Assembly: GCA_950295325.1 (NCBI GenBank)
Contig: OX485809.1
Location: 33,728,001-33,792,000, forward strand
Source of the DNA: Polytrichum commune
Lineage: Eukaryota; Streptophyta; Polytrichopsida; Polytrichales; Polytrichaceae
DNA: 64,000 nucleotides
Direction: 5' to 3'
Part shown: in pieces, positions 31,380-63,775 of the stretch
How the letters are laid out: every line of letters begins with the position of its first letter
How positions within the stretch are numbered: position 1 is the stretch's first letter
Notes under the pieces: model-generated
What the model saw: only the letters and a program-made list of their open reading frames with translations
The model's database searches: none
Told to the model about the DNA's origin: nothing
Position numbers and translations under genes: made by a program

Positions 31380-32770
31380 TCATGTTGTAGTATTCATTCT
31401 TAAGATTTTTGTTGGTTTGTTTGCATGTGGTGGTTTTAGTGCTTGCTTAGGTAAGGAGTATTTGCATTTGGTGGTTTTCAAGGTTTTGTTTGTTGAGCAT
31501 GTGTAGTATGAGGTATTCAAGCGGATTGTTGCATGCATGTATGTTTGGGCATTAAAGGGATGTAGCATTGTTCGAATAGGTTGGTGATGTAGTTCATGTT
31601 GATGCATGTTGTGAGGATGGTGAGTGGTACACACCATCAAACATCTTTGAGGGTGTCCACCAATGGTTGGTATTTTAGTTTTTTCCCAATGGGTTGATGT
31701 GGTGGGTCATGATCCTAGCACAATGTGAATTCAATGAACTTTAAGCTCAAGTTTTTGGCTAGTATGATGTGTGGTTTTCTCGGGGGAGGTGGTGGTGATG
31801 ATAAGATGGTAGGTTTGAGTCTAGCGACACATTGGTATGGGCTTATGGTGCATAGGCATGTGTATAGCGATGCGGGGATTTTGTTGTATGGGGTGCTCCC
31901 TGTGTGAGTGTATGCTTGCATTAGGACGTGGCTCTCTTGTGAAATGGGAGAGGAGTCGTTTGTGTATTTGCCATAATGATTTGTTGTGTCTGATTGCTCA
32001 AATGTTGTTGAGGGTGATGTTCATGCATGTGGAGAGTAGGTAGAGGCATGTGCCAATTTCTTGTAGCGTGCAAAGGTTGCGAAAGGGGGGAGGGAAACGT
32101 GTGGACCAGATGGTGAGTTACGTTTGGTTGCCCATGTATTGTCTATATCAAAATTTTAGTATTCGTGTGATTTATGCATGTGTGCATTTGAGTGTGGATC
32201 AAAGCCATTTGAAGAGGGGGGAGTGAACTAGTGGATTGTTGAATCATTTTGCTACATATGGGTACTGAGATAGGATTTAGGTTGTGAGTTGGTGGGTGTA
32301 CGTAGGGTTTGCCACGTGTTGGATGGGTGTGGTATGGGGGTGTTATGCAAGGAATTTGGAGTGCCATAAGGGAATGGTATGCGCAATATGTATAATTGGG
32401 GTGGGTAGGAGGTGGGGTTGTTTGCACTGAACTTGGTGAACTTGTTAGCGGCGTCGTTGCCAAATATTCTTGAGTGTGGATGGATTTTTTGGAGTGTAAG
32501 GGGGGAAAATGTGTTGTGAAAGTCAACAAATCATGGGTTGTTTAAGTAATGGGAAGGTGGTTGTGTTGGGAGGAAGGTTGGCAAAGGTGATTGTGGGTGA
32601 GGTGGATGGAGTTGAGGTTGTGTGTGACGATATATGAGTGCATAGTGAAGTGGAGGGCGTTGTAGATGGTTGTTAGTTATGCGTGTAGGATATTTTGTTT
32701 GCCGGGGAGTCTGTGAGCGTGTTGGGGGTTGCCGGTGGGATGATAGATTGCCTCATTGAGGGGAAGGGGG
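31380..32770 (-). pseudogene. Decayed copy 3 of RNase H/RLE non-LTR retroelement
   Basis: Read on the minus strand across several frames, this follows the same order as the copies at 47.6-49.1 and 52.0-50.4 kb. Near 32735-32677 is RLPGKQNILHA, matching RLPGLQNILRAELMA of the RNase H domain. Near 32490-32430 is a K-I-x-x-H-S-R-I-F-G-N-D-A-A-N-K stretch, matching the last RNase H block. Near 32000-31960 is an R-H-N-K motif after a degraded zinc knuckle, and at about 31750-31715 LKFIEFTLC, matching the RLE block IQFIEFTYC. Many frameshifts and stops make it dead. The plus strand is G/T-rich here, as expected for an antisense copy of this A/C-rich element. Neither 5' nor 3' end was fixed, and the 3' hairpin seen in copies 1 and 2 was not found. 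Confidence 0.6.
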
Positions 32771-44296: not shown

Positions 44297-44508
44297 TGAT
44301 GCCATGTCCACACTTATTGGTGGGCATAGCCATTAGATAACTTCCATCAATATGAGTGCCTATTTCATTTGCTTTTTGCCAACAAATGGGTAAAACTTTT
44401 ACCATGTTACATCCAATCATTGGCTAAAAGCGACCAAAACTACATGTATTGTTGGGAGTTGTCCACTTGCTATGCCCATTAATAAGTGTTGGCATGGCAC
44501 TAGAAACA
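44297..44508. mobile_element. Small foldback TIR element related to family J
   Basis: GTGATGCCATGTCCACACTT, GTGGGCATAGC on the left is mirrored by GCTATGCCCATTAATAAGTG, TTGGCATGGCAC on the right. About 210 bp. Inner arms AAAACTTTTACC and the GGCTAAAAGC block are at its centre. It ends just before the A/C-rich retroelement region. Confidence 0.6.
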
Positions 44509-44648
44509 CCACTAGAAACACAATGGATGCATCAAGCACAAACTATACCAACACTAACCCCCACAATCTCCCTTAAATACCTACATAAATTCATACTCCA
44601 CAACATAACCAAACTCAAGCACATAACACACCCCAATGCATACACTTA

Positions 44649-44990
44649 ATGACAAACGATGAATTCAAACATTACTATGACACACCCACTAAAACAATCC
44701 AAGCCGCCCTAGATCAAGCTCGAGCTCTCTTTTGCGAACCACCGTGTCATAACCCATGCCTAAATAACTGCCCAACACATACCTTACCAAACATCCTAAA
44801 AAATGCATACAAAATACAAAACCACCACATAGACACAAGCTTAAGAAGGCACAATGCACACCCTCCCACACCTCCACCACCGGAATACCCAAAGCCACCT
44901 TCGTATACACAAAGAAACCACATACAATATTGTGAGGCCAAACCGCCCACCCTTAAGCGTCCTAGTCCGGGTGAGGGTATGGTGATCACA
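44649..44990 (+). pseudogene. Cys-cluster ORF fragment of the retroelement
   Basis: The plus frame from 44649 begins in A/C-rich coding style, with TPTKTIQAALDQARALF followed by C-E-P-P-C-H-N-P-C-L-N-N-C, four cysteines at regular four-residue spacing, then HTLPNILKNAYKIQNHHIDT. A proline-rich part follows. Beyond about 44990 the frame stays open to 45209 but no longer looks like the same protein. I do not recognise the domain; the regular Cys spacing suggests a metal-binding knuckle. Composition and position link it to the retroelement. Confidence 0.35.
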
Positions 44991-45269
44991 TTCATATTCA
45001 TCCTAGTTTACCCTTCCTTCATCACTCATCCCCATGACATCACACATACATTGGGTCACACCAATTTATTCCATATTATGAGTACAAGCGTTGATAAACG
45101 CTTTTATCCATTGGTACTATCTTCACATCCTCTATCAACTTCCCACACAATTGCACCCCTGATTACACAGAGAGCTAACTACCTAGTTAACCCATCCATC
45201 TTAACTTAAGGTACTAGACCTAACTAACCCCTCCTTCTAACTGCCCCTTAATCCAGCTGCTCCTTAGTA

Positions 45270-45865
45270 TAGCTACTGCCTCGGCTAACCTTAATAAGCT
45301 GGTCTCAGTCCCCTTAGTAAGTTGGTCGCAACTAACCTTAATAAGCTGGTCTCAATCCCCTTCGTAAGCTGGTCTCAGTCCGGCCTTCGTAAGTTGGTAT
45401 CAGTCCCCTTAGTAAGCTGGTCGCAGCTAACCTTAATAAGTTGGTCTCAGTCCCCTTCGTAATTTGTCGCAGCTCCTTAGTAACTCTGTTGTCGCAGCTA
45501 ACCTTAATAAGTTGGTCTCAATCCCCTTAGTAATATGTCGCAGCTCACCTTTATAAGCCGGTCTCAGTCCCCTTAGTAATCTGGTCTCGGTCCCCTTAGC
45601 AACTCTGCTGTCGCAGCTAACCTTAATAAGTTGGTCTCAGTCCCCTTAGTAATATGTCGCAGCTCACCTTAATAAGCCGGTCTCAGTCCCCTTAGTAATA
45701 TGGTCTCGGTCCCCTTAGTAAGCAACTGTCAGTCCCCTTAGCAACTCTGTTGTCGCAACTAACCTTAATAAGCTGGTCTCAGTCCCCTTAGTAACTCTGT
45801 TGTCGCAGCTAACCTTAATAAGCTGGTCTCAGTCCGGCCTTCGTCCCAGCTACTGTCGTAGCACC
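45270..45865 (+). repeat. Minisatellite of about 22-50 bp units
   Basis: A tandem array built from the core CCTTAATAAGCTGGTCTCAG alternating with TCCCCTTAGTAA, TGTCGCAGCT and related spacers. The CTTAATAAG/GGTCTCA core occurs about nine times; a shorter sub-unit of about 22-24 bp (CTTAGTAA + TGGTCTCAGTCC) underlies it. The array lies inside the A/C-rich element region. It is not a CRISPR array: spacers are themselves repeats. Confidence 0.8.
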
Positions 45866-46519
45866 CTCTTAATCAGCTAATTTTCTAAGCTCCCCCTAAT
45901 CAACTCTATTCTCTAAGTTCCCTCTAATCAACTCTATTCTCTACCACACTACACAACACACACACACCCACCCACACACACCCACACACAAGAGAGAGAG
46001 AAAAAAAAATGAGAGAGGAGGAAGGAATGAGAGAGGGCATCCCACAACCACAACCCCCTTAACCTTTTCCTACTTAGTAGGACCTTATCCTATCCACTAA
46101 CACCTCACCCCCTAAACCAACACGAGCATGTTCTAATTCAAATATTTAAATCAAAGGCCCTTCCCCTTGCTTCCTCAAACACTACTCACTCAACCAAAAC
46201 ACTCCCTAATGTTGCTAAGCTTCTAATTAACCACACAAATAGGCTTAAGGCCTAAACATAAATCCACACCAAGCCTCACTCTTTTTATACTTTTAATTAT
46301 TTCAATAACACCCCAAATGCAATCCTAAGTAGATTCTAAGCATAAAACAAATATGAGCAACCATTTTGGGCTCATAAATATCCAATACATTCTATACTAA
46401 AAGACCGCCCCCACACTTACAAAGATAAAAACAAAATTACAAAAAAATACACATCCTACCTTTGTCAATGGATACTCCCACACGAAACCATATACAACAA
46501 GTGGCTCCCCCAAAAAGAC

Positions 46520-47440
46520 TTGTTCCCATGGAACAATCAAAACACCATGAACCACAACATTCTACTCCTAACACAATATTATACTCACAAACAAAATCAA
46601 CACTTTACCAACATCTTACAACTACACTTCAATGTAGAACAACTAAGAGACACCATATACATTCCCCCGCCACAAGTCATACCCTTACATCATATCCATA
46701 TCAACGAATGTAACCTAGATAATGACATCGCCTGCACTCAAAATAGCATCCAAAACCAACATGATGTATCACACATCTACGACAATGACGGCCGCCATTT
46801 AATTGCCATCCCCAAACAAAGATTGCAATGGTTATGAGAACAATACCAAAATGCATTAAGCAAACCACACAATCTAGAACCCCCCACACAATCATTCAAA
46901 AAAGAAGTTGTATGGTTATACCAACGATACAAATATAGACTATCCAAAAATGACCCCCTCAAACTCTCACAATATACACTCCCAAATGCCATCCTTGAAC
47001 ATATCATTGACTCCTTCCACATCACACATTCATACTTCTCATCACCAGTCACATGCCCTATCAAGCTAAGACAATTTTCCTCCACATTCTCCCGAGACAA
47101 AGTTTTCGGGTCAATAGGAACGGTATTCCAACATAAATAGACAGGTAATGGGTATGTCCATCCACATACAGAAAATGACACCCAACAAGCCCTCCATTGG
47201 GCAAGACTTGCAACCCAAAACAACCCAGACACAATTACAATACTTATAACAACTGATCCAAATTGGTATCAGAACCTCGACCCCCATGAAGGTCCTTTCC
47301 CGGATTCACACGTCATCACATACTTTAAAGCGGACACCATTACATATGATGAACCCACGATACCACCATAACTACAAATTGAACCTCGAACAGAAAGCCG
47401 TGACATTAGGATATTGTGTATACACCACAAAACCATGTCC
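46520..47440 (+). pseudogene. Retroelement linker with PCIF1-methyltransferase-like region
   Basis: The plus frames give a linker with QLRDTIYIPPPQVIP and then, about 46985-47440, DKVFGSIGTVFQHK, a TAG (47138-47140) where Trp would fit, a VHPHTENDTQQALHWARLA block, then ITILITTDPNWYQ and GPFPDSHVI. The order FGS-x-G-x-x-F, a site where PCIF1-like enzymes have NPP[F/Y], a long helix, then hydrophobic residues ending in an aromatic strand, resembles the PCIF1 cap-adenosine methyltransferase fold. Here the NPP-like site reads HPH, so activity is unlikely. The resemblance is by eye. It ends before the RNase H domain. Confidence 0.35.
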
Positions 47441-47467
47441 CTCGGACCAACATGATACGCATGTCGC

Positions 47468-48112
47468 ATGAACATTATTGGCAAATCTTTACAAATACCC
47501 ATTATATTCAACACAACCGCACCACCCACACCAATAAACACCTCAGTAAACCGTAGTAAGAACTGGTCTCAACTCACACATCTGCCCCCTCCACCCCCTC
47601 CACCCCTGACCCAAACTACCAATATCCCACCAATCACAAACCATGACATATGCCTACCCCTCAAATACCCACCGCAATTTTGTTATTATACCGATGGGTC
47701 ATTTATCCCACCCAAAGCAATAACCCAATAACATTGGAGAAGAGAAAAGGCAGGATACGGTATATATAACCCTTTTAAAAACCTTAAAATTGCAGAGAGA
47801 CTACCAGGACTCCAAAATATACTACGAGCAGAACTGATGGCTATTCATCACACTTTATGCCTCCTCACTACCACATACCGAAATGTACTAGCACACATTT
47901 TCACAGATTGCCTTAATGTTTTATACCTCCTGAACACACAAACAAAACACCCAACCTCACACAACAATCACCTAGACAAAAAAATACTTGAATCTATAAT
48001 TACGATGTTACAATCCCGTACACAAACCACCACACTACATAAAGTCAAAGCCCACACGAATATAAGTGGCAACGAACAAGCGGACAAATTAGCCAAATGG
48101 GATGTGAATTAG
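47468..48112 (+). pseudogene. RNase H domain of retroelement copy 1
   Basis: After a Pro-rich spacer, YYTDGSF (about 47694-47714) gives the first acidic residue, RAELMA (47825-47842) the Glu, IFTDCLN (about 47895-47915) the second Asp, and GNEQADKLAK (about 48067-48096) the last Asp. All four catalytic acids of the RNase H fold are therefore present. A stop after the first block (AITQ*) and a frameshift break the frame. RNase H would remove the RNA template strand during element cDNA synthesis. Copy 2 aligns closely throughout. Confidence 0.75.
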
Positions 48113-48413
48113 ACCATAAAGATGCCATAGCAACGTATGAACATGCACACCCCACGCCATACTACCTTCAAAAAGGTTGGTGGCACTCAATGCAAGAAAC
48201 ACCAGACAAAGGCCCCATCCGACACCTTGGTAAATACATCATTAAATATGACAAAAAGCATAACCTATCCCTCATAGCAACCCAAACACACCAATTACAC
48301 AAATGGCTAGACAACAAAGATATTGACAAAGCATTACAAGTGACTTCTGGAACAATCCAGTCATCACAGATAAACAAAAAACATACCTAGTAAAATTCCG
48401 AACCGGACAATAT

Positions 48414-49101
48414 ATGGGACATGCTCTGAAACAACTCTTCTTTGGTAGAAACGCATACCCATCCAATACATGTCCTATTTGTAACTCACAAGAAGCAGAC
48501 ACATGGCTACATGTACTCCTAAAATGCAAACAACAACACATCCACGTGCTCATAACAAATAGACATAACAAAGCGGTATGGGAAATACGCAAACTTCTCG
48601 TCTCAAACAAAGTCACAAGACATTACATACTTATGAATGCAAGCACATACAATGAACTACCCCAAGAAAACACAGTACCAACATGGTTACTACCATGCAC
48701 ATGTGAAACGGGCTCGTAGTCATGCTCGTGTGAAAATACGGGCGTTATTTTTTCTTTTTTTCTTTTTTCTTTGCACATGTGACACCCAAAGATGCCACTA
48801 TAACGCTAGGCTCAAACCCGACATACTATGCATCTTAGGCCACCCATACAACTCCTCACCACCAGAAACACCTACACCAACAATTACTATACAATTCATT
48901 GAATTTACATACTGCAATGACAAGTTCTATGCTGAAACAAGAGAGCGGAAAATTACAAAATATCAACCACTCATCAACGATATCATAGCAAGAGGTTGGA
49001 ACATAGCTCCACTTATAGTACTAGCATCAGGTGCCAGAGCCACAACTCACATCCCCTCGATGAACGAACTCGAAACAAAGCTTAAACTCCCTACATTATA
49101 A
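48414..49101 (+). pseudogene. Zinc knuckle and RLE domain of retroelement copy 1
   Basis: CPICNSQEADTWLHVLLKC (about 48471-48527) is a C-x2-C-x9-H-x4-C knuckle, followed by an R-H-N motif (48561-48569). The RLE follows: LKPDILC (about 48811-48831), IQFIEFTYC (about 48889-48915) and a K-x-x-K-Y block. Together these are the hallmark of restriction-like endonucleases of early-branching non-LTR retroelements, which nick the target DNA. A 65-bp insertion (48707-48771) splits the domain and shifts the frame; without it the frame reads through to CDTQRCH. The plus frame ends at 49101. Confidence 0.75.
48707..48771 (+). mobile_element. 65-bp insertion with 11-bp target duplication
   Basis: TGCACATGTGA occurs at 48696-48706 and exactly again at 48772-48782. 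The 65 bases between start with AACGGGCTCGTAGTC and end in a T-rich pyrimidine tract. Copy 2 lacks the insertion and its protein runs PCIC...CHCNARF through this point, so this is a true insertion. A long perfect duplication and a simple-sequence tail suggest target-primed retroposition of a very short RNA or SINE fragment. Confidence 0.8.
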
Positions 49102-49380
49102 ATTAGGAGCACATTCAAACAAATCAATATAATCGCCATAGAATACGCACACTCAATATTAATCCATAAAAGACGAATAGAAAATAGACAATCACATACT
49201 TACAAAATCATATTTAAATCTTATGAACCCAACACACCCTCCTCCCCCCCCCCGGTTAACCGGTAAAAACATTAGTTACTAACATAGTGTCTACTCCCTG
49301 CAAAGGGTGAAGTAGTATTACATCCAACGCCTCTACCTTGGGGTATGGCCACGGATGTCCTACGAACAAACACTTTATTC

Positions 49381-49425
49381 ACTCCGGCCCCCTAGCCGGG
49401 ACCGGAGTTCTTCATCTTCTGTGGG
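49381..49425 (+). repeat. 3'-terminal hairpin and tail of retroelement copy 1
   Basis: ACTCCGG (49381-49387) and CCGGAGT (49402-49408) pair, as do the inner CCC and GGG, giving a GC-rich stem with a short loop, followed by a TTCTTCATCTTCTG tail. The same hairpin with the same preceding CACTTTATTCAC / CACTCTATTCAC block ends copy 2 (50117-50144, minus). Confidence 0.7.
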
Positions 49426-50096: not shown

Positions 50097-51955
50097 AGTA
50101 AGATAGATAGATAGAAACTCCGGTCCCAATATAGGGGCCGGTGTGAATAGAGTGTCCGTTCGTGATGCCAACAATCCCATGTCCATAGGACATGGGGAAG
50201 CTGGGACAAAACTACTCTCCTCTTCCGAGGATGGACACTATAATAACCAAAAAACATGGGTCCAGCAAGGCCCACTAGGGTGAATAGCGTTAAAAGTATA
50301 AGGAGTGGGTGTAATGTGAGGATGTAAGCGAGGTGATGATTCTGTGGTAGGTTGTACCAACCTAGCGGCTCCAATCCCTCATATGATTGGGACATAAAAA
50401 CTAATGAAATAAATCTAATCTAATTGTGAGTTTAGAGTGTGAAGTTTTGAGTTATGGAGGGTCTAGATTTTGTGGGAGCGGTTGGTGGTTTTCAATCCGC
50501 CTTTTATGGAGGAGGATTGACATGGCATATTGAATTGCGATGGTATTAATGGTTTTGAAGGTATGTTTGATGGTAGCCATGGGTAGTTTGAGGTTGGTTT
50601 CAAGAATTTCCATAGATGGGGTGTGGGCAGTAGCTCTGGCCCCAGCTGTGATGACAATAAGCGGTTCGATTTTCCATCCTCTGGCAACGATACTATCAAT
50701 TAGAGGCTTATATTTGTGATTTTTTGCTTCAGTGGCTTCTGAGGAAAATCTATCATTGCAGTATGTGAATTCAATAAATTGTATGGTGAGGTTAGGGTCA
50801 ATGTCAGTGGGAGGGTTGCTTTGACATGGTAGTCCTTTTACACAGAGTATATCTGGCCGAAATCTAGCGTTACAGTGACACATGTTTGTGCTACATATAC
50901 AAGGGAGGAGCCAATTGGGAACAGTATTTTCGGGGGAATTATTATTGAAGGTACCGGCATTCATGAGAGTAAAGCATCGGGATTTTTCAGACGAGATTAG
51001 GAGCTTCCTAATTTCGCCAACTGCTTTATTATGTCTTTTAACTCTAAGTGAATGTATATGTTGTTGTTTACATGTAAGTAGAACGTGGAGCCAAGTGTCT
51101 AGTTCGTTTGAGTTGCATATAGGACACATAATAGAAGGGTAGTGTTGGGGACCGAAGAACAGTTGCTTCCTAGCATTGCCCATGTATGTTTCTGTGCGGA
51201 ATTTAATAATGCAGGATTTTTGTTTGTCGGTGATTAAGGGATTTGTCCAAAATTCATTGGATAGTTCTTTGTCTATGTGTACATTTTCTGTCCATTTTGA
51301 AGTATTGGGGCTTTGTGTGGCCATGAGTGCTATATTGGTTTCCCTATCATATTTTATAATTTGTTTGTCTAAGAATCTGACAGGACCTTTATCTGGGACG
51401 TCCGTCATGGAGGCCCATACGTCTTTTTGATAATAGTATGGGGTGGCGTGGGCATGTTCATATGAGTGAGTAGCAATACGGTGTTCTAATTCTAACCCTT
51501 CTTTTGCTAGTTTATTTGCTTTTTCATTACCTTCAATGTTAACGTGTGCTCGAACTTTGGAAATTGTGATTGGTTGTGTACGGTTTTGAAGGATTTGTAC
51601 CATGGAGTTGAGTGTGACTTGGTCTGGGTGACTATTATGAAGGGTGGGATGTTTAATTTGGGTGTTGAGTAGATAGAGTACGTTTAGACTGTCTGTGAAT
51701 ATGTATGCGGGTTCATTAGGAAATTGTGTATTTATTAGTGTTAGTGTTTGGTGTAGAGCCATCATTTCTGCACGTAGTATGTTTTGGTGTCCATAGAGTC
51801 TTTTGGCGATATTTCAGCCTTTGGGACTGTAGATACCGTAGCCAGCTCTTTCTCTTCTCCATTCGCTAGGGGCAATTTCTTTGGGTTTTATAAAGGAGCC
51901 ATCAGTGTAGTAGCTGAATTGGGGGTGGAATTTAAGGGGTAGGTTTATCAAAGAA
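50097..51955 (-). mobile_element. RNase H/RLE retroelement copy 2, 5'-truncated
   Basis: On the minus strand the element starts abruptly at about 51955, just before the first RNase H block (LPLKFHPQFSYYTDGSF), and runs through RNase H, zinc knuckle and RLE to a 3' UTR with the GC hairpin at 50144-50117 and a (CTAT)n tail (50116-50099). 5' truncation plus a simple-sequence tail is typical of target-primed reverse transcription. No target duplication could be fixed because the 5' flank is A/T-rich. The sequence is better preserved than copies 1 and 3, so this is probably the youngest of the three. Confidence 0.7.
50452..51955 (-). pseudogene. RNase H - zinc knuckle - RLE protein of copy 2
   Basis: From 51765 (Met) to 50452 the frame is open for 437 codons; the same frame continues upstream to about 51950 through one TGA, after YGIYSPKG, to the first RNase H block. 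In the numbering from 51765, RNase H contributes D25 (IFTDSLN) and GNEKANK at 79-85, where the usual last Asp is N84. C214, C217, H227 and C232 form a C-x2-C-x9-H-x4-C knuckle; R244-H245-N246 follows. A second Cys cluster (C289, C291, C296, C298) precedes R303-P304-D305, E332 (IEFTYC) and K348/K351-Y352 of the PD-(D/E)xK-type endonuclease. With one stop, a 5' truncation and no reverse transcriptase it cannot be autonomous. Confidence 0.8.
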
Positions 51956-55997: not shown

Positions 55998-56075
55998 ATG
56001 GATGTTTTAGTGGAGTTTTGTCGTTCTTCTGCCTGTTTTCCAGTGTCAACTCGTGCTTTTGGTAAACAAGTTTGA
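55998..56075 (+). promoter_or_regulatory. Upstream ORF in the CRF leader, good context
   Basis: GCCATGG at 55995-56001 is a strong initiation context. The frame encodes 25 residues and stops at TGA 56073-56075, about 90 nt before the CRF start. A CCTGTTTTCCAG sequence at about 56031-56042 could be a splice acceptor, in which case a leader intron would remove some uORFs. Confidence 0.35.
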
Positions 56076-56164
56076 CCGACGATACAAGCAGCAGCAGGTG
56101 TAGGTGGGTAATTAGGAACACAGGAGCATTTGCACTTCTGTATTGTGAAGCACTTCGCAGCACA

Positions 56165-57844
56165 ATGCCAGGCACTATATCTGTTCCCAGGCCATTTTAC
56201 CCCTCGCTAAAAACGACTCTGGCGGCTTCGACCAAGAGTTTAAAGCGAGAGAGTTGGTCCTCGTCGGATGATGAGTGGACGACCAAAAGTCAAGTTTGTC
56301 CTAAGAGAGTGCGAGTGATTTGCACGGACCCGGACGCCACGGACTCCTCGAGTGATGATGAGGATAGCTTCCGTCACAGTCGTCTAATGAGGAATTCGAG
56401 ACGGAGGCTAGTGCAGGAGATCACTTTGGAAGCAGAGTCAGCGGTGCCCTCGTCGGAGAGCGAGGAGGAGGAGCCCGAAGTGCCAAGCTACCACAGCGTC
56501 TTCACTGCGCAAGCGATGCAATGCTCACTCAACTATGCGAGTCCCATCGACAGTGAGTCCGTCTTAAAGTCCCCCGGTTTCTACGATATCCCTGCCTGGA
56601 GGCCAAAGAAGGTTGGCGGCATTGTGTCCGAAAAGAAGGCAGCAGTCTTGAAACAAGCCAAGAAGTCGGAGGTTGCACCTCCTGCTACTCAGGCTAGCGC
56701 ATCAACGAACAGTAATGCCACAAGTGCCACAGCGCAGAAGCCTGCTCCCGTACTTGCGAACAAAACCTCGCCTTCGAAGTCTTCGTCCGCGCCCAAGGCT
56801 GTGACGAAGACGGGAGACAGCGGGTGCAAGACGCACAAGTACCGAGGTGTGAGGCAACGGCCATGGGGAAAGTGGGCGGCTGAGATCCGGGATCCGTCCA
56901 AGGGGGTGAGGCTATGGCTGGGGACTTACGACACAGCGGAGGAAGCTGCGCAAGCATATGACAAAGCTGCTAGGGAGATCAGAGGGCCCCAAGCTCATAC
57001 CAATTTCTCAGGGCTGGCGAACTCTTGTGCCACTTCGGGGTCGACTAAGGTGGCGAGGAAGGCCGAAACAACGACGCAAAAATCTTCCGCAGAAGCAGCA
57101 GTGAAGAGGGGAACTTCGAGTCCTAGCAGCACGAGGGTTGAGACTGCGAAAGCCTCCGGGAAGCCCATGTGCGCTGTCGAGGTTGAGGTTTTGACTCCCA
57201 AGATGAGCGAGGATGAGGAGAGAGCGCAAGCTAAAGCAGCAGAAGACACTTTTGTAGTGATGAATAGCGAGAGGGAGGAGGAGGAATCCGATGTGAGCAT
57301 GTATGGAAATTTGAGCGAAGAATGTGGTTTCTTTGCTTGCTCGCCTTCGTCCGTGTTGGACGGGTGTCCGTCGGTAGATTCCGAGGAGTCCCCATGCTCC
57401 AGTGTGGAGGACATCGCAGAGGCATTTTGTGTAACGTCCGGTGAGGTGGACGATGCTCTCGCGCAGTTGGACGCAGACAGCCGGTCGTCGGAGGAATGCA
57501 TTGCACCCGAAATCACAGAGGACACGCAGTTCCTGTGCAACGTGGTGGGAGATTATCGAGAGAGCTTGTCAGATTCGGACTCGCAGAGCGAATTTTCTGA
57601 AAGCCTGGGTGCTGAGGACCTTCCTCAGGACAGCTTGAAGGAGTTGCAGGGTTGCGACCTGGGTTTAGAGTTTATGTCGGACGATTTTTTGTTCGATATT
57701 CCGGGAGGCGATAGCGGAGATTCAATCCTGGATTTCGCAGCTGGTTTCGAGCTGCTGGGCGACGACATTGGCGACATGGGCTTCGACGTGCAGAGCGATG
57801 CGGCCATGGACTGGTTGAATGGCGCCGATGTCCTCGTGTCCTGA
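56165..57844 (+). CDS. AP2/ERF transcription factor, cytokinin response factor (CRF, ERF group VI) type
   Basis: A nuclear DNA-binding protein of 559 residues on a single exon. The start is the first ATG of the frame (MPGTISVPR); the frame is open back to 56072 but without ATG. Residues 46-66 ([20 protein letters not shown] and on) are the CRF/TEH domain that defines this group and mediates protein interactions. Residues 225-281 are one AP2 domain ([38 protein letters not shown]) with the ERF-type Ala and Asp, expected to bind GCC-box-like DNA. SPSSVL at 393-398 matches the SP[T/V]SVL putative MAPK site of CRFs. The C-terminus (about 470-545) is acidic with aromatic and leucine residues ([10 protein letters not shown]), like an activation domain. 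At 559 residues it is longer than typical seed-plant CRFs, with Ser/Ala/Lys-rich linkers. It is isolated among repeats, with a TATA box at 55637 and a uORF-containing leader. Family call secure; exact orthology not. Confidence 0.93.
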
Positions 57845-62960: not shown

Positions 62961-63325
62961 CGGAAATTTTAACTAGGGTAATACTAGAGTCATGACTCAT
63001 AAGGTCAAGAACCATGGAGGCTAATTAATTTGGGGTTGGTTCCGTTCACTGGGCCGATTAGGGTTTTGAGGCTCTAAGCACCCAAGGACCCTCTCTCACG
63101 AGTATAAGGAGTTTGCGTCCCTTGTGCAAAGTATCCCACTCCTCTACTGGGATTTCTCTCTGTGCTCTTTCGATACTGCTCTTTCGCTTTTGTTTGTTTC
63201 TGCATCCACCTGCGATCTAGTTGGAGACATATGTTTCGGAGGTCCAGTTCGAAGGTCTAGTTCGGAGGTCCAGGGTGAAGGTCAAGTTCGGAGGGCCAGT
63301 TCGGTATGGCGATCCACTGATCATC
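62961..63325 (+). other. Upstream region of the hAT fragment
   Basis: No gene called. A short tandem run of GGTCCAGTTCGGA-type units of about 13-16 bases lies at about 63238-63306. The CT-rich part at 63140-63200 could be leader sequence, but no promoter is evident. Confidence 0.35.
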
Positions 63326-63775
63326 ATGGCTTGTAAGCGTGAATTTCTACCTTTCAAACTACAAGTCACCACAGAATGGGGAGATAAGACTTATAGAGAT
63401 TTATGGGGCATGATCACATGGAATCATTCTTTGCAAACCCGATATCCTAATTTGCTTGTCCTTGTTGATTTGGCTAGAGTACAATGTGTATCAACATCCA
63501 CTTGTGAAAGGGCGTTTAGTGTCCAAAATTTAATAAAAACACGAGTGAGAAACAAACTTGGAAGTAAAAATTTGAAAGCTATGTTTAGAATTGCTTTGGA
63601 GGGACCAGATGAAAACTTTGATAATATTATTGAAGAGGCAATTCCTTTGTTGAAAACTGGAACCAAATACCGGTTTTTATATGTTAATCCTTCACGTTAT
63701 GTGTCTTCTGTAAATGACGCATCTTGTTCAATAAGTTCAACTATGTTTTCTAATTCTGAGGATACGGATGTTTAA
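63326..63775 (+). CDS. hAT transposase C-terminal fragment (dimerisation region)
   Basis: From ATG 63326 there are 149 codons to a TAA at 63773-63775; the frame is also open back to 63221. EWGDKTYRDLWGMI, YPNLLVLVDLARVQCVSTST and CERAFSVQNLIKTRVRNKLG are the C-terminal hAT dimerisation blocks, of the subgroup annotated as zinc finger 862-like in animals and plants. The catalytic core and BED finger are missing, so this is a 3' remnant. The frame has no stop or shift, so it is younger than most relics here, or expressed as an exon of something larger; I see no evidence for the latter. The tail is Ser/Asp-rich. Confidence 0.6.
   Translation: MACKREFLPFKLQVTTEWGDKTYRDLWGMITWNHSLQTRYPNLLVLVDLARVQCVSTSTCERAFSVQNLIKTRVRNKLGSKNLKAMFRIALEGPDENFDNIIEEAIPLLKTGTKYRFLYVNPSRYVSSVNDASCSISSTMFSNSEDTDV

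Follow-up and report, generated by a model that had tools for sequence, protein, structure and literature searches.

What kind of element left behind, in the genome of the moss Polytrichum commune, a frame that joins RNase H blocks, a zinc knuckle and the motifs of a restriction-like endonuclease (RLE)? The sequence-only reading of the window, by which we mean the whole analysed stretch of 64,000 nucleotides, had proposed a Dualen/RandI-like or new RLE lineage from this 3' end. Dualen is described, in the available text of Kojima and Jurka 2015 (PMC4640811), as the group that has both an AP-endonuclease (APE) and an RLE, and the host listing in the available part of Elliott and Gregory 2015 (PMC4438587) gives Dualen/RandI from green algae only. 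In the accessible text of a 2022 review of land-plant elements (PMC9033089), the LINEs are L1 and RTE and the word Dualen is absent. Our own literature search found no report of a Dualen or other dual-endonuclease element in a land plant, which is weak evidence, as unrelated papers crowded the results and subscription papers mostly lay outside. For the genomic part we searched 407.8 Mb in 64 contigs, of which C1–C7 together hold ~406 Mb; the window lies on C7.

Copies in the window

The feature had been placed at 50452–51955, as a 437-codon frame with an upstream extension. Both parts are present as described (frame at 50452–51765, −; extension to 51945), the limits agree with ours to ~10 bases, and the RNase H blocks, the knuckle, R-H-N and RPD/IEFTYC/KxxKY were each found at the place implied. 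The Pfam RNase_H profile scores 26.6 bits on the 437-aa frame, slightly over its cut-off of 25.8. Judged from its sequence, this copy A (Table 1) is what remains, after 5' truncation, of a LINE whose 3' end codes for RNase H, followed by a CCHC knuckle and RLE motifs. It corresponds to residues 2080–2576 of the full-length ORF2 and carries one in-frame stop within the RNase H part, located in the extension between YYTDGSF and RAEMMA. The last ~140 nt of its 3' UTR align with the corresponding ends of the intact copies L009 and L010.

A density of at least three copies per 20 kb had also been claimed, and tblastn with the intact ORF2 indeed places three within ~20 kb. Copies B (44506–49191, +) and C are older than copy A. 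Inside copy B we found a PF12237 match, containing one stop, at 46859–47266. The insertion that splits this copy holds a degenerate minisatellite of CCTTAATAAGCTGGTCTCAGTCC-type units at 45239–45835.

Other searches with the window gave RNase H in all five rows of a PHROGs search, plus two weaker families, while no Rfam family reached its gathering score in the window and viral contigs searched with peptide patterns of the window protein gave no match. The clearest host gene of the window is an open 590-codon AP2/ERF-like frame at 56072–57844 (+), with the domain recognised by eye. A further frame at 63221–63775 (+) resembles, by eye only, the dimerisation region at the C-terminus of a hAT transposase.

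Table 1. Element copies and their parts in the window, with the basis of each assignment.
Feature	Position	Strand	Basis
Copy A, 5'-truncated (RNase H, linker, CCHC knuckle, RLE, ORF2 C-terminus)	50455–51945	−	tblastn of intact ORF2, 87% identity; Pfam RNase_H
CCHC zinc knuckle C-x2-C-x9-H-x4-C, residues 214–232 of the 437-aa frame	51070–51126	−	invariant in 15/15 copies
RHN motif ahead of the RLE core, residues 244–246	51028–51036	−	invariant in 15/15
RLE core motifs RPD, IEFTYC, KX2KY, residues 303–352	50710–50859	−	motif reading, 15-copy alignment
Copy A 3' UTR with terminal (TATC)n tail	50101–50451, left end approximate	−	alignment with L009 and L010
Copy B piece 1, ORF2 residues 1521–1661, after RT	44506–44930	+	tblastn 40–51%
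Insertion splitting copy B	44931–46375	+	gap between the two ORF2 tblastn pieces
Copy B piece 2 (PCIF1-like domain, RNase H, knuckle, RLE), broken frames	46376–49191	+	tblastn 52–65%
Copy B 3' UTR, terminus CCGGAGTTCTTCATCTTC (end approximate)	49192–49420	+	by eye, likeness to other copies' 3' ends
Copy C, old decayed RNase H–RLE remnant	31610–32683	−	tblastn 24–36% identity, E 5e-19 for linked pieces

The full-length element, its reverse transcriptase and its nucleases

When we searched the window protein against its own genome, we obtained 96 scored matches among 6256 candidates, 84–100% identical, and three of them sit in open frames of 2625 aa (L009, L010 and L013). These three are intact, full-length copies of 12.0–12.7 kb with an ORF1 ahead of an ORF2 that has 2576 aa from its first ATG and contains the reverse transcriptase (RT). 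Their ORF2s differ at only 20–32 of 2576 residues, and at 3–5 nt in the last 1548 nt of the reading frame; the element is recently active in this genome. Other families have ORF2s of 2854 aa (L015), 2853 aa (L016) and 2568 aa (L017). The set assembled for RLE diversity comprised 12 loci, of which the frames of 10 are listed (L026 and L035 were unused); the broken copies L018 and L020 were left out of the counts. ORF1 of the L009 copy has at least 721 aa and may be longer, as it begins close to the edge of the sequence examined. It matched nothing significantly in Pfam, and we infer a gag-like role for it.

ORF2 is arranged as leader, 2A-like motif, APE, RT, PCIF1-like domain, RNase H, knuckle and RLE. 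In the L009 protein, Pfam detects RVT_1 at 1073–1338 (2.2e-29), PCIF1_WW at 1822–1915 (5.1e-8) and RNase H at 2090–2230 (5e-13), while two APE families match weakly and below cut-off at 455–702. The ORF2 of L015 has the same domain order, with an APE score of 25.5 against a cut-off of 24.5 bits and RNase H at 1.5e-14; Exo_endo_phos is above cut-off in L015 and L021. Across six aligned ORF2s, which amount to about three families since three and two of them are near-identical, the APE residues N458, E487, D614/N616, D673 and SDH 697–699, the YADD of the RT and the RNase H residues D2094, E2139, D2164 and D2223 are all invariant. We take these to be the catalytic residues.

Compared as a whole with the PDB, ORF2 had five R2-type best matches (9nl3, 2.6e-30; 9dou, 3.7e-30; 9nl2, 2.3e-29; 8gh6, 5.7e-20; 8ibw, 9.9e-19), and L1 chains were absent at E≤1. 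As the control we took an L1 RT of this genome (L036), which matched L1 ORF2p chains with E-values from 7.5e-45 to 1.7e-43 and R2 with 3e-16. An RT placed within L1, RTE or an LTR retrotransposon had been named as an outcome that would speak against the Dualen-like proposal; in this comparison, which took R2 and L1, the RT is R2-like by score and the L1 control behaves. We therefore rejected an L1 element. L036 itself (G000:C5:10509800-10514600) is an L1-type LINE with APE, RT and zf-RVT. Of 322 candidates found in a zf-RVT search 150 were scored, and 141 of these matched; ordinary L1s thus coexist with the Dualen-like lineage in the genome.

For the RLE we aligned the window copy with 14 others from the genome. 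All 15 keep RHN and the CCHC residues, 14 keep PD and 12 keep KxxKY, the remaining three frames breaking earlier. Because they are near-invariant over the aligned copies, the motifs are not due to chance, an explanation that conservation and selection over the copies rule out. A degenerate pattern for FIEFTYCND had 571 exact matches in the genome and none in the reversed control. The dN/dS ratio of the RLE is 0.093–0.17 in 6 of 10 pairs, with dS saturated in the other 4, and that of the APE is 0.09–0.18 (3 pairs); dS between families is often >1, which makes those ratios rough. Judged from such ratios of about 0.09–0.18, both endonuclease regions are under purifying selection.

The available text of PMC5678591 gives the marks of LINE RLEs as CX2-3CX7-8HX4C, RH, a PD core, KX2KY and GXW, with RH important in R2Bm for binding and cutting DNA and the first K of KX2KY as the catalytic lysine. 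Held against these marks, the moss element has RH, PD, an acidic residue and KX2KY, and its knuckle spacing of x9 is one longer than x7-8; in the aligned copies GXW was not seen and RGW stands instead. Neither an RLE-only profile nor a longer RNase H–RLE profile matched an R2 chain at E≤10. A PD-(D/E)xK fold missing after the knuckle had been named as another outcome against the proposal; window sequences were modelled for this, and confidence was low. Modelled from its sequence alone, the 437-aa protein gave nothing informative (pLDDT 34.4). A model of the RLE part, built with three window-only rows, reached a mean pLDDT of 38.5 and has the order strand-strand-helix-strand in residues 126–215, in a block of pLDDT only 40–60. 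With this low-confidence model Foldseek returned 304 matches at E≤10, none of them at E≤0.001; among the best 50 of the 304 rows, 36 belong to cap-snatching endonucleases or L proteins of arenaviruses and bunyaviruses, and one to an R2 protein. As the rows are mutually related and the model is poor, we regard them as only a hint. The assignment as an RLE is drawn from the motif set and from selection.

The PCIF1-like domain, the 2A-like motif and the element ends

Between RT and RNase H lies a domain that resembles PCIF1, the cap-adjacent m6Am methyltransferase. PF12237 matches all four members tested, L015 (47 against 31.1) and L019 also match in full, and the profile was above cut-off at all 150 places scored, out of 697 candidates; the PDB entries of PCIF1, 6irv and 6irx, were matched weakly (0.018–0.082). 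In an alignment that left out L029, L032, L033 and L034, all 10 sequences keep the FG(S/A)(L/I)G segment, a further likeness to PCIF1. The difference lies in NPPF, the catalytic motif of PCIF1, which is absent from all 10 sequences and is replaced in the element by HP(H/P)(N/T). With dN/dS values of 0.12–0.22 (6 pairs) the domain is under selection and therefore does something, and methylation by the usual mechanism is unlikely because the catalytic motif is changed. Our guess from the sequence is that it may bind caps or RNA, which we consider more likely than methylation. No report of PCIF1 fused to a retrotransposon or transposon was found in the literature, which is weak evidence of absence.

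Near the start of ORF2, by eye, the peptide GDIEPNPGP occupies residues 228–236; the motif stretch in L009 reads LELLKCGDIEPNPGP. Searched as a DNA pattern, GD(I/V)ExNPGP has 256 exact sites in the genome and none in the reversed control, and its synonymous codons vary. When the two middle codons were freed to GD(I/V)xxNPGP, the number rose to 425, again with a control of 0, and 169 of these sites lack the canonical Glu. Among the matches listed it is replaced mostly by Gln, His or Lys, and the young L016/L017 family has Lys at this place. For the neighbourhood of the motif we compared 45 of the 54 canonical sites on C1, as listed, with the listed matches of the RLE, PCIF1 and the window protein. 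At least 33 of these 45 sites have an RLE or a PCIF1/C-terminal match downstream on the same strand and, among the matches listed, 0 of 45 have one upstream. The leader before the motif is nearly unconstrained (dN/dS 0.75, from the one pair L009 and L017), and the ratio falls to about 0.1–0.2 behind the motif, as would be expected if the leader were shed. From these sequence features, the ribosome probably skips at the 2A-like motif.

Two further loci carry more than one NPGP site: L021 (C2:36079300-36083300) has two, and L022 (C1:71598000-71604000) has three, of which one reads GAIHTNPGP. The sequence that follows the sites is similar (YTQRQKQYFI..TL.LKP type), and it seems that in these families an N-terminal module was duplicated along with its 2A site.

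All three full copies whose ends we examined terminate in (TATC)n and are flanked by a 12-nt target duplication, at unrelated sequences. The duplications are TGGCCCCATAGG for the copy at C1:17946376-17959077, TCCATTCTTAAC, with two bases overlapping the tail, for the copy at about C2:42781488-42793454, and TTTGAATTAGGA for the copy at C5:35125263-35137752. A duplication was defined as the 12 nt after or at the tail end that recur upstream of the element. The searches tolerated two mismatches, at which level 50, 23 and 91 of 200 shuffles matched likewise, and the evidence for the duplications is consequently that all 12 nt are identical in the sequences themselves, a match for which simple arithmetic gives an expectation of ~0.0005 per 4-kb stretch. 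The constant length fits a fixed spacing of two cuts by one protein, at a small number of sites (n=3).

A 22-mer from the 3' end of copy A has 848 exact matches genome-wide and none in the reversed control. As it is commoner than the RLE motif with its 571 matches, SINEs or 5'-truncated copies may share the tail. In the 3' UTR of L009 and L010, ~280–385 nt before the tail, we noticed a stretch GGTTGGTTGGTACAA ... TCGAACCCGGAAC that is tRNA-like on the reverse strand, by eye, and is perhaps an old SINE.

At the other end, the L011 copy begins within the 5' UTR of the L037 copy and is hence 5'-truncated, and L014, of which one end was aligned, has no shared 5' region there. The L012 copy (L012:1490-3478) has a 5' UTR unlike that of L011 and L037 upstream of a sharp junction, GGTGCT(A/G)GGACATC. 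The two elements with these unrelated 5' UTRs are otherwise nearly identical, and both 5' UTRs lie inside target duplications, which looks like an exchange of the 5' leader. A splice-donor-like GGTAAGT stands in the shared part just 3' of the junction.

Classification, alternatives and meaning

With APE, RT, RNase H, CCHC knuckle and RLE motifs in one full-length ORF2, the Dualen/RandI-like assignment first made from the 3' end gains support, and we conclude with high confidence that a recently active non-LTR retrotransposon of the Dualen/RandI type left this 3' end. APE and RLE in one element are common to both (PMC4640811, available text), as are RT and RNase H. Both also end in a 3' repeat tail other than poly(A), which is (ATT)n or (CTATTT)n in algal RandI (PMC3747384, available text) and (TATC)n in the moss element. 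Compared with described Dualen elements, the host here is a land plant, a PCIF1-like domain without NPPF is placed between RT and RNase H, and 2A-like motifs occur near the start of ORF2. Kojima and Fujiwara reportedly found, in 2005, a cysteine protease domain in the Chlamydomonas Dualen, and it is uncertain whether this domain is defining. Pfam scans of our ORFs at E≤1 to 5, a weak test, detected no protease.

R2 and the other RLE LINEs share with the moss element the CCHC, RH, PD and KX2KY motifs and have the closest RT among solved structures. They differ in that the element adds APE and RNase H, has a knuckle spacing of x9 and sits at three unrelated sites with 12-nt duplications. In APE-type LINEs with 2A motifs, namely L1Tc of trypanosomes and elements of sea urchins (PMC4981915, available text), D(V/I)ExNPGP stands in frame with the retrotransposon proteins, as here. 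The moss element has an RLE too, some of its families have two or three NPGP sites, and the canonical Glu is missing from a large part of the sites, as counted above. The sequence-only reading had further compared the element with the L1 and RTE LINEs, with AP-endonucleases, that are usual in seed plants. That comparison is probably not applicable, because the genome contains dynein heavy chains (13 matches to the family, 12 of them over cut-off, at 8 places), which point to a spore-bearing land plant as the probable host. To our knowledge flowering plants and conifers are without dynein heavy chains; cycads and Ginkgo keep motile sperm and have very large genomes.

The element could be a plain APE LINE, of the I, Tad or L1 group, that carries RNase H and, towards its C-terminus, a CCHC knuckle; the part beyond the knuckle would then be no nuclease. 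APE and RNase H are clearly present, profile and fold searches gave no proof of the RLE, and a CCHC knuckle occurs in APE LINEs as well (PMC5678591, available text). Against it stands the ordered series RHN, (R/K)PD, E and KX2KY, which is the signature of LINE RLEs and is kept over families at low dN/dS where this is measurable; the RT, moreover, falls on the R2 side and not with L1, and 37 of the best 50 Foldseek rows, none significant and from a low-confidence model, are cap-snatching endonucleases, L proteins or R2. We consider such an APE-only element improbable. Somewhat less improbable, yet still unlikely, is a new lineage in which RLE and APE were joined independently of the algal Dualen. 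The extra PCIF1-like domain, the 2A motifs and the undetected protease would suit an independent origin, but the same set of APE, RT, RNase H and RLE in a host of the green lineage makes common descent simpler. Those four domains stand in the same order in algal Dualen.

That the copies come from an alga, a fungus or another contaminant in the assembly is suggested by the green-algal host listing (PMC4438587, available part) and is hardly credible to us. All seven large contigs carry copies, and one copy in the window lies beside a plant-type ERF frame; contamination was rejected on these grounds.

For the Dualen-type element, the following course would be consistent with its sequence. ORF2 would be read as one long frame in which the ribosome skips one bond at GDIExNPGP, which would shed the fast-evolving leader and release a protein of ~2340 aa with APE, RT, PCIF1-like domain, RNase H, knuckle and RLE. 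In target-primed reverse transcription, the two endonucleases would each nick one strand, first and second, ~12 nt apart, the RT would start on the (TATC)n 3' tail and RNase H would clear the RNA template. That both nucleases cut, and that they divide the strands between them, is our inference. Going further, one may tentatively propose that a Dualen lineage survives in land plants other than seed plants, with single or tandem 2A skipping that has replaced protease processing, a PCIF1-derived domain without NPPF that grips the capped RNA of the element, and APE and RLE sharing the two strand cuts; we regard this combined proposal as possible rather than probable.

Dualen elements link the LINEs that cut with an RLE to those that cut with an APE. 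If the proposal is true, the moss element would be a living intermediate of the switch from RLE to APE in LINE evolution. It would extend the Dualen lineage from algae to land plants and would add a cap-methyltransferase-like domain to a LINE. Because the lineage has hundreds of copies, some of them young and intact, and both nuclease regions are under selection, it becomes testable how the nucleases divide the two strands and why both are retained.
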